Below, piece by piece: positions 59,648-61,016 of a DNA stretch of 64,000 nt (position 1 is the stretch's first letter; each line of letters begins with the position of its first letter). Below the pieces are notes generated by a model. It was not told where the DNA came from and made no database searches. It saw only the letters and a list, made by a program, of their open reading frames with translations. The translations under genes and the position numbers were made by a program. The DNA is taken from contig CP136064.1 of assembly GCA_032622095.1 (NCBI GenBank), forward strand, positions 193,843,948 through 193,907,947, given 5' to 3'. This stretch comes from Siphonodentalium dalli (taxonomy: Eukaryota > Mollusca > Scaphopoda > Gadilida > Siphonodentaliidae).

Positions 59648-59955
59648 AGTACTAGAAGGTGACCCGACTTCGTCCGGGCTTTGACATTGAATTGACCATT
59701 TTGAAGGTCAAGGTCAGATGGGGTCACGATTTGACCCGTCCAAAACACTCCCTGGAAACAATTACCACTAAGTATCGAATTTCGTCAAAATCCGTCTGGC
59801 AGTTTACCAACACCAACACCCCAAAAATGGTGGAAATTGGCCCAGCGGATACCGAGATACCCTATGTATCAAATTTCGTCCGAAAAATCCGCCAGTTTTA
59901 CCCACTGATTTCCACTAAAGTATATAAACGCGCCTCATATACACACGCTCGTTAA
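59648..59955 (+). mobile_element. RTE-like or related repeat, left end and partial unit
   Basis: Starts ACTAGAAGGTGACCCGACTT then CGTCCGGGCT (hairpin word CCCGACTTCGTCCGGG) and continues with GAAGGTCAAGGTCA, TCGAATTTCGTCAAAATCCG, GGTGGAAATTGGCCCAG and CAAATTTCGTCCG. The class resembles RTE-type 3' regions (TTTCGTC-AAATC-GTCCA; recollection). It pairs in style with 60780-61016. The apparent frame is not a gene. Confidence 0.45.
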
Positions 59956-60069
59956 TTATCAAGCTTCAACGTAAAGATAAATTAGCATTGTGTAGTAAAT
60001 TTTAACTAATTATTTTCTCGGCGTCAAAGTTGAACAATGTCGATGTTGATGGCATTGACGGTTTGGGGG

Positions 60070-60457
60070 CACCGGTAGATTTTTTATTATTTTTTTTAGA
60101 ACCCGGGGCTATTGCGGACCACTCATATCGGCTGGAGCACCCCGAAAGAGGTGACCCACCCTTACGAGATGGTCAAATTGCCTGTCAGGGTCAGTCCCCG
60201 CTAAAGCGGAAGTCCGTCAGTCAGTCACGACCACTCGTCCTCCTCAGGCTGCGGACCCACACCGTGGAAGTCCCGTCCGATGGGGTGACCATCGTCGGGG
60301 ACGTATCTCACAGCACGGGCTCGAGCCAAAAGGCCGAGAAGCGATCGAATGAGCACCATCCCTATGGTCCGAAACCCCAGCCAAATGGAGTGGTGGATGA
60401 GAATCGAGGCTCTTGGATGAGATTCCAGACCATAACGATGATGGCCACCGGTAGATT
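60070..60457. repeat. 12-bp target-site duplication flanking a retroposon
   Basis: CACCGGTAGATT occurs at 60070-60081 and 60446-60457, exactly flanking the insertion 60082-60445, whose A-rich tail (minus strand) abuts the left copy. This is the expected product of target-primed reverse transcription. Confidence 0.75.
60082..60445 (-). mobile_element. SINE-like retroposon containing the 5' end of U2 snRNA
   Basis: Read on the minus strand, the 364-bp insertion ends in an A-rich tail (TTCTAAAAAAAATAATAAAA) and is flanked by a 12-bp duplication. About 100 bases from its 5' end, 60345 down to 60324 match the first 22 nucleotides of U2 snRNA without a mismatch (ATCGCTTCTCGGCCTTTTGG and the next two). 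A few bases further, GATACGTCC resembles the stem-loop IIa part of U2, but the branch-point-pairing region (GTGTAGTATC) is replaced. The rest is GC-rich and unlike its AT-rich neighbours. No pol III A/B boxes were recognised. The + strand frame over it (60030-60500) is therefore probably not a gene. Confidence 0.7.
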
Positions 60458-60779
60458 ACAACAGCGAAATAGCATTTCAGCTAAATGGATTCTTGGATGA
60501 GATTCCAGACTCGCGGGGTAAATGTAAACAACTTGAGCCTATGCGTGGTGTAAATATACGAAAAATAAATATATCGACAATAGACCTAAGAATATCAGCT
60601 GTAACAAAATTTATATATCAGAAATTGTAAATGATTTATTTTGGGATAGATACACGATTCTTAATAGCCTGCAAATTGACAATATATATTGTAAATGTTA
60701 TAATTTTGGGGAAAATACACGATTCGTAATTGCCTGTAAATTGCTTACGTTCGTCAACGTATGAATATAGAGTTATCCT

Positions 60780-61016
60780 CCCTGCATCGCAGTGCTAAAT
60801 TCCGGCGTGTTAGCACTGCGGATCCCGAGATATGAGTTTTGAAGGTCAAGGTGACACCGCACGGACAAATGGACGGGCCCATGTTCGTTCCCGGGTCGAA
60901 TTACGTGTCCGTACCAAGTTTGGTCGAAATCGGTCCAACCGTGTTCGAGTCCATCGCGAACACACACACACACACACAGATCTTCCAAAATATATAATAG
61001 ATATAGTACCCTATTA
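60780..61016 (+). mobile_element. RTE-like 3' end with CA repeat and ATAGATATAG tail
   Basis: AGATATGAGTTTTGAAGGTCA, GGTCGAAATCGGTCCAACCG, GAGTCCATCGCGAACACACAC(AC)n then TATATAATAGATATAG. The AAATCGGTCCA-CCGT ... CGAACACACACA ... TATAGAT order is the usual RTE-type LINE or derived SINE 3' terminus (recollection). No coding region. Confidence 0.55.

Follow-up and report, generated by a model that had tools for sequence, protein, structure and literature searches.

An snRNA-headed SINE and L1-like LINEs of Siphonodentalium dalli probably insert at a fixed distance downstream of PSE-like motifs

Results

Structure of the SINE copy in the window

The window, that is, the whole stretch of 64,000 nucleotides analysed here (contig CP136064.1, positions 193,843,948 to 193,907,947), carries on its minus strand a 364-bp SINE copy that is bounded by target duplications and lies within a short Helitron-like host repeat. 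The features of the locus are as follows.

60082..60445, minus strand: SINE copy, 364 bp, consisting of Head A, U2 1–22, a body and an A-rich tail; near-full-length dispersed copies are about 90–98% identical to it, many with target duplications of their own
60446..60457, minus strand: target duplication, 5' copy, 12 bp (AATCTACCGGTG), abutting the element start; its left edge is the first-nick position (60458/60457)
60070..60081, minus strand: target duplication, 3' copy, 12 bp (AATCTACCGGTG), abutting the A-rich tail
60346..60445, minus strand: Head A, ahead of the older U2 head; host-repeat copies without a SINE share its first ~36 nt
60324..60345, minus strand: U2 snRNA nt 1–22, exact, as compared with the genome's own U2 genes
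60297..60307, minus strand: GATACGTCCCC, matching U2; replaced by TGATACGTCCCC in several long relatives
60098..60323, minus strand: SINE body; long-type relatives have 58 bp extra after U2 nt 22 (U2 23–46 plus CGCGCTGGCC...)
60082..60097, minus strand: A-rich tail, as read from the letters
60547..60551, minus strand: core of a PSE-like motif, ACACC within TTTACACCACGC; it precedes the nick position by 94 nt and the element by 106 nt
60491..60510, minus strand: scrap identical to Head A positions 16–35, in the host flank
60459..60473, minus strand: scrap GCTATTTCGCTGTTG in the host flank, the same, by eye, as part of Head B
59652..61001, minus strand: Helitron-like host repeat around the SINE, short, running TCTATTATATA ... 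hairpin ... CTAG between A and T, as read against SINE-free copies

The original prediction had described a 364-bp minus-strand insertion with a 12-bp duplication at both ends, and re-reading of 60445–60082 recovered AATCTACCGGTG on both sides, with the A-rich 3' tail (60082–60097) abutting the duplication at 60070–60081 as had been claimed. The 22-base exact U2 start reported at 60345–60324 was identical to the genome's own U2 genes, and GATACGTCCCC, which had been noted after the match as in U2, was present at 60307–60297. The branch-point-pairing segment of U2, stated to be missing, is indeed absent from the window copy, though longer relatives have it. Rfam made no U2 call in the window at gathering score, nor for 59900–60600 at E up to 10.

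The first bases of the window copy are junctional, since most full copies read ATCATCATCG where the window copy starts with GCCATCATCG. Its 5' flank already carries scraps of two SINE heads (60510–60491 and 60473–60459). The host repeat at 59652–61001 has end motifs that we take to be those of a Helitron. The PSE-like motif sits in this host repeat itself, and in the SINE-free copies (L056–L066) the sequence after it leads into Head A, of which the first ~36 nt are present.

Copies and heads of the SINE family

The genome searched comprised 2.23 Gb in nine contigs. A search with the window SINE gave at least 67 matches (40 of 596 candidates scored), and a 26-mer of the body occurred exactly 249 times (129 + 120), with no occurrence of the reversed control; a tail variant occurred 129 times (control 0). 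At the loci that were read, dispersed copies end in A-rich tails and are flanked by target duplications of their own, ~9–18 bp in length. The element is multi-copy and not single, with body, heads and tail common to many copies, and it shows the hallmarks of a SINE in being short and non-coding and in having target duplications and a 3' tail. The suggestion of an snRNA-derived SINE family thus agrees with the many dispersed copies that differ in their target duplications and end in A-rich tails.

Comparison with the genome's own U2 genes, many of which lie in a tandem array of 920-bp units, revealed that these genes begin with letters identical to 60345–60324. A longer U2 part is found in the long type of the family: U2 1–46 is present without mismatch in L029, L161, and L172, including the species' own ATCAAAGTG, and U2 4–46 or 5–46 is present in L020 and in most of the L068 array units shown. 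U2 of this species carries ATCAAAGTG, whereas vertebrate U2 is said to carry ATCAAGTG. The U2 part of the long type leads into CGCGCTGGCC or a sequence much like it; in all, this type has 58 bp that the window type lacks. Without Head A, the long type begins at U2 nt 1 in L161 and L172 and within a few bases of U2 nt 1 in L014, L072, and L020.

Head B (ATACGCTATTTCGCTGTTGCGAAATGG) stands ahead of the U2-containing body at seven loci (some truncated) and at three further loci, and two copies (L045 and L050), with target duplications AACACAATAGTTGTG and AATTGACAACACAC, are headed by U4 snRNA nt 1–61 at 100% identity, starting at U4 nt 1. SINE heads therefore begin exactly at nt 1 of U2 and of U4. 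The occurrence of heads A, B, and U4, each before one U2-containing body, amounts to recurrent head addition, and the internal position of U2 in the window copy follows from the addition of further heads before an older U2-headed SINE. Judged by its sequence, the window element is a chimera, of a kind in which Head A, Head B, or U4 1–61 lies upstream of the older U2-headed SINE; a chimera had been offered in the original prediction as one possible reason for the internal U2. An open-access literature search, which has incomplete coverage and is not proof of absence, found no report of U4-headed SINEs among the titles listed.

The promoters of snRNA genes are external to the transcript. TTTT is present within the U2 head. 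In the SINE-free host copies L056–L066, the first 36 nt of Head A lie ~60 nt after ACACC (a few copies with small changes).

Arrays of the SINE were also found. Four units at L069 have a common 5' truncation and duplication, yet belong to different subfamilies, and there are array units that meet at Head A position 41, at a distance of ~100 nt from the motif in the host. The tandem array L068 (C3:68.477–68.488 Mb) contains at least 25 SINE matches ~337 bp apart, with ACTCTCTCA as the spacer in the part read. Ten SINE matches of equal 5' truncation lie on one strand at C2:123.52–124.13 Mb, ~10–130 kb apart, and this region has 12 body 26-mer matches; the copies point to a large repeated unit that carries the SINE, and the two that were read (L031 and L032) have a common flank. 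The first 400 bases of contig C1 contained no telomere repeat.

Distance between ACACC and SINE insertions

From 114 SINE loci, 108 were kept and six with less than 200 bp before the detected start were dropped. Because shared host-repeat junctions are not independent insertions, the 108 loci were collapsed to 50 flank clusters. ACACC was present at −125 to −95 of the SINE start in 22 of the 50 clusters when one representative each was scored, with ~1.3 expected from the window's own rate, and in 26 of 50 when any cluster member counted. It ranked first of 1024 pentamers in this interval, in which the reverse motif GGTGT occurred in none of the 50 clusters. Five neighbouring intervals contained ACACC in 1–5 of 50 clusters each, and the downstream flank contained it in 3 of 49. 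No ACACC was found at −125 to −95 in 28 of the 50 clusters by representative, or in 24 by any member; among the motif-less clusters, many copies are severely 5'-truncated or have no clear duplication. L001 was a miss as cluster representative, its start being shifted by the head scrap, though its ACACC distance is 94.

Among the first 74 SINE loci, ACACC lay 102–120 nt before the SINE in 26 and at 58–61 in 20 more, the latter being copies at shared junctions of two host repeats; it lay elsewhere in 11 and was not found within the flank read in 17. A forecast, ACACC at −125 to −95 or at −60 ± 5, was fixed before 40 new loci were picked by the tail pattern alone. The motif was present in the forecast intervals in 13 of these 40, two of which had no usable upstream sequence, versus ~1.4 expected.

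For insertions defined by their duplications, the end point of each distance was the left edge of the target duplication, where target-primed reverse transcription places the first nick. ACACC lay 87–105 nt before the first nick in 24 of 29 insertions, or in 20 of 25 flank clusters (some of the 29 have common flanks), with a mean of ~97 and an SD of ~4; the distance in the window copy is 94. The distance between ACACC and the nick is fixed at many unrelated sites, and the sequences at these sites differ. The motif is separated from the element by the duplication and hence is part of the target, outside the mobile unit. The other five insertions had no ACACC in range: two have AAACC (at 103 and 109), and three have nothing with one mismatch. 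L123, which has a low-complexity duplication and was left out of the 29, has no ACACC either.

The table of 29 events comprises 27 rows plus L001 and L079. L037 has two ACACC in range, at 95 and 113; in such cases the motif closer to 96 was used. Besides L123, the loci left out were L013, L016, L017, L018, and L039 (repeat inside the host), L036 (host1), those with duplications of 7–8 nt (L028, L051, L122, L130, L142, L149, and others), and the same-host duplicates of L079, L085, and L152.

The motif in snRNA gene promoters

Of 20 U1, U2, U4, and U5 promoters scored, 19 have ACACC, usually as ACACCTC or ACACCAC, at 57–60 nt upstream of the gene; many of the 20 are array copies and non-independent, and the pseudogene L113 was set aside. 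In the main U2 array, AAACC at 57 takes the place of ACACC, and the L112 promoter has neither. By virtue of its position and recurrence, ACACC is taken here as the putative PSE core of the snRNA promoters. In the letters outside the core, 26 target sites were closer to snRNA-gene promoters than were 141 other ACACC sites (Mann–Whitney P = 2e-6).

L1-like LINEs in snRNA genes

LINEs were found inside U2 genes of the U2 array. At L158, a U2 promoter followed by U2 1 to ~53 lies before the LINE, whose A tail joins U2 nt 37; the duplication is GTATCTGTTCTTATCAG. The LINE at L157, the only one examined in this respect, starts with its own second U2 1–48; it codes for an APE endonuclease and for a reverse transcriptase (RT) that is nearest L1 ORF2 among solved structures.

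The 3' junctions of the LINEs lie at nt 37 in U2 (L158 and L178), nt 35 in U4 (L174), nt 41 in U5 (L172), and nt 33–37 in U1 (L173, L175, and L179; A-ambiguous). These junctions are 90–99 nt from the PSE in the four kinds of gene, whose nick letters differ, as calculated with the PSE spacing of each gene class and with AAACC for the U2 array. The motif distance of the LINEs is thus similar in U1, U2, U4, and U5 genes.

The 3' end of the LINE in U4 (L174) is 87% identical to that of the LINE in U1 (L175) over 268 bp, and the RTs at those U4 and U1 loci are 85% and 91% identical to that of the U2-array LINE. The latter RT had 132 matches, the nearest at U2, U4, U5, and U1 gene loci and others elsewhere; many relatives lie outside snRNA loci, some of them apparently in histone genes. 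Heads derived from snRNAs were found at LINE 5' ends (U1 1–28 and 1–36; U2 1–39 and 1–48). The 5' junctions are not simple, since the LINE of the C4 U1 array (L167/L175) is preceded by an intact U1 gene and spacer, and that of the U4 locus (L163/L174) by no U4 start.

A partner LINE of the SINE was sought via the SINE 3' end, a degenerate tail pattern (60 loci read of 129 matches), and the RT relatives. The 3' end of the L158 LINE had nine matches. The tail of the SINE was in none of nine LINE 3' ends, which sample few families, and the best match was at chance level (E 0.27). A LINE adjoins the SINE in L014, L054, and L072. In L072 (~912–1039), a long-type SINE is followed directly by U2-headed sequence that resembles the 5' end of the L158 U2-array LINE.

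Two related LINEs, L176 (~1249–1310; TGTCAGGGCGAGGCAAAGGAGG) and L177 (~874–940; CAAAGGTGGTAAAGGTCTTGGAAAGG), located at C5:111 Mb and C9:143 Mb, have the A tail joined to an apparent histone coding start. TGTCAGGGCGAGGCAAAGGAGG reads MSGRGKGG if A precedes, and CAAAGGTGGTAAAGGTCTTGGAAAGG reads KGGKGLGKGG, which we take to be H4. Judging from these junctions, histone genes may be a further target of this LINE group, with insertion close to the 5' end of the gene. In L165 (1380–1535), a U1-headed LINE lies directly behind what appears, by eye, to be the 3' part of a 5S rRNA gene.

Discussion

Our analysis points to a common mode of insertion: the snRNA-headed SINE and the L1-like LINEs probably insert via target-primed reverse transcription at a fixed distance downstream of PSEs, which are upstream elements of snRNA-type promoters, with the first nick at ~97 nt. 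With less assurance, we lean towards a broader reading, in which the snRNA-promoter complex would steer LINE and SINE integration to any PSE at a fixed offset, and SINEs would renew their promoter and 5' head there. Under the common mode of insertion, the shared ACACC motif would be a functional PSE, PSE-bound factors (SNAPc or the initiating polymerase) would position the endonuclease, and the LINEs would provide the enzymes for the SINE. In snRNA genes, the ~97-nt offset falls at about nt 33–41 of the transcript. A copy that landed behind a PSE would be transcribed from the start site of the host, and the first 35–60 nt of the host could become the new 5' head of the SINE, as with U2 1–46, U4 1–61, and the first 36–40 nt of Head A; a U4 head of 61 nt requires that insertion took place at the extreme of the distances observed. 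A PSE that repeatedly called insertions to one site would give rise to tandem arrays, and arrays with one shared entry point (L069, L037, and the units joined at Head A position 41) would thus be explained. Among titles from the open-access literature search, no report of PSE-positioned retrotransposition was found, the coverage being incomplete and no proof of absence.

The heads might also have arisen by template switching, in which the RT jumps from the 5' end of the SINE RNA to an snRNA and copies to the snRNA 5' end. This predicts heads whose first base is precisely nt 1 of U2 or of U4, as found; it is reportedly the explanation for U6/L1 chimeras and is plausible for SINEU. We nevertheless regard it as rather unlikely, because it predicts neither that a PSE-like motif should stand at a constant distance beyond the target duplication, nor that head lengths should be near the insertion position in genes, nor that a head should be common to SINE-free host-repeat copies behind a PSE-like motif. 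Template switching and positioned insertion could act together. The simplest account, an ordinary isolated U2 retropseudogene, would fit the U2 sequence, the A tail, and the target duplication, but is refuted almost beyond doubt by the body, heads, and tail common to many copies and by the internal position of U2.

Two further accounts address the motif and the target. If a few mobile host repeats (the Helitron-like host1, host2, and others) carried the PSE-like motif and spread the SINE, the association would be a passenger effect, and one flank cluster does account for 26 of 108 loci, two others account for 13 and 8, and many junctions are identical. This is very improbable, however, given that the association persists in the 50 collapsed clusters and in insertions with private target duplications, and that the LINEs keep the distance in real U1, U2, U4, and U5 genes. 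Alternatively, the elements might recognise U2-like sequence with relaxed specificity, as described for crocodilian Utopia; this is in keeping with U2 being among the targets and with the Keno/Utopia site, at which U2 resumes at nt 39 (PMC4640811), near nt 36/37 here. The nick letters in U1, U4, U5, and the dispersed sites are, by eye, unlike U2, and the common property found is the distance to the motif, which makes such specificity improbable. Positioned insertion behind PSEs remains our preferred reading.

The SINEU elements of crocodilians reportedly have snRNA-derived heads (U1 and U2), with snRNA 5' ends added recurrently. The family described here likewise has heads from snRNA genes that start at nt 1 and were added recurrently; unlike SINEU, with its reported U1 and U2 heads, it has U2 and U4 heads and a putatively PSE-positioned target. 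The comparison suggests that an snRNA-headed SINE family as such is of a known kind, SINEU being the closest, and that PSE-positioned insertion common to LINEs would be the surprising part. SINEU (Kojima 2015) is cited in PMC8010984 and PMC7245038.

Keno and Utopia are LINEs that target U2 genes, with downstream U2 beginning at nt 39 (PMC4640811). The LINEs described here resemble both in inserting in U2 near nt 36–39 and in having U2 fragments at their ends, and resemble Utopia in occasional tandem insertions, but related LINEs here also occur in U1, U4, and U5 at about equal promoter distance. Their APE endonuclease makes them like Keno and not Utopia. Dictyostelium TRE and yeast Ty elements target Pol III genes (PMC5911963), and likewise depend on position near small-RNA genes and not on the sequence at the cut. 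Unlike TRE and Ty, which target tRNA genes, the elements here would target snRNA-type promoters, including scattered PSE-like sites, and the SINE may gain a head from its target. Dada elements, which also target multicopy small RNA genes including snRNA genes, are DNA transposons, whereas the elements here are retroposons.

Since snRNA promoters lie outside the transcript, it has been a puzzle how an snRNA-headed SINE is transcribed and keeps gaining heads. PSE-positioned insertion, if true, would answer both: each jump behind a PSE could found a new family headed by the first bases of that gene. Such insertion would be to snRNA promoters what tRNA-gene targeting is to tRNA genes, would be the general cause of snRNA-headed SINEs, and would link these SINEs with U2-targeting LINEs. 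The insertions could then map functional PSEs, and a direct test would become possible.
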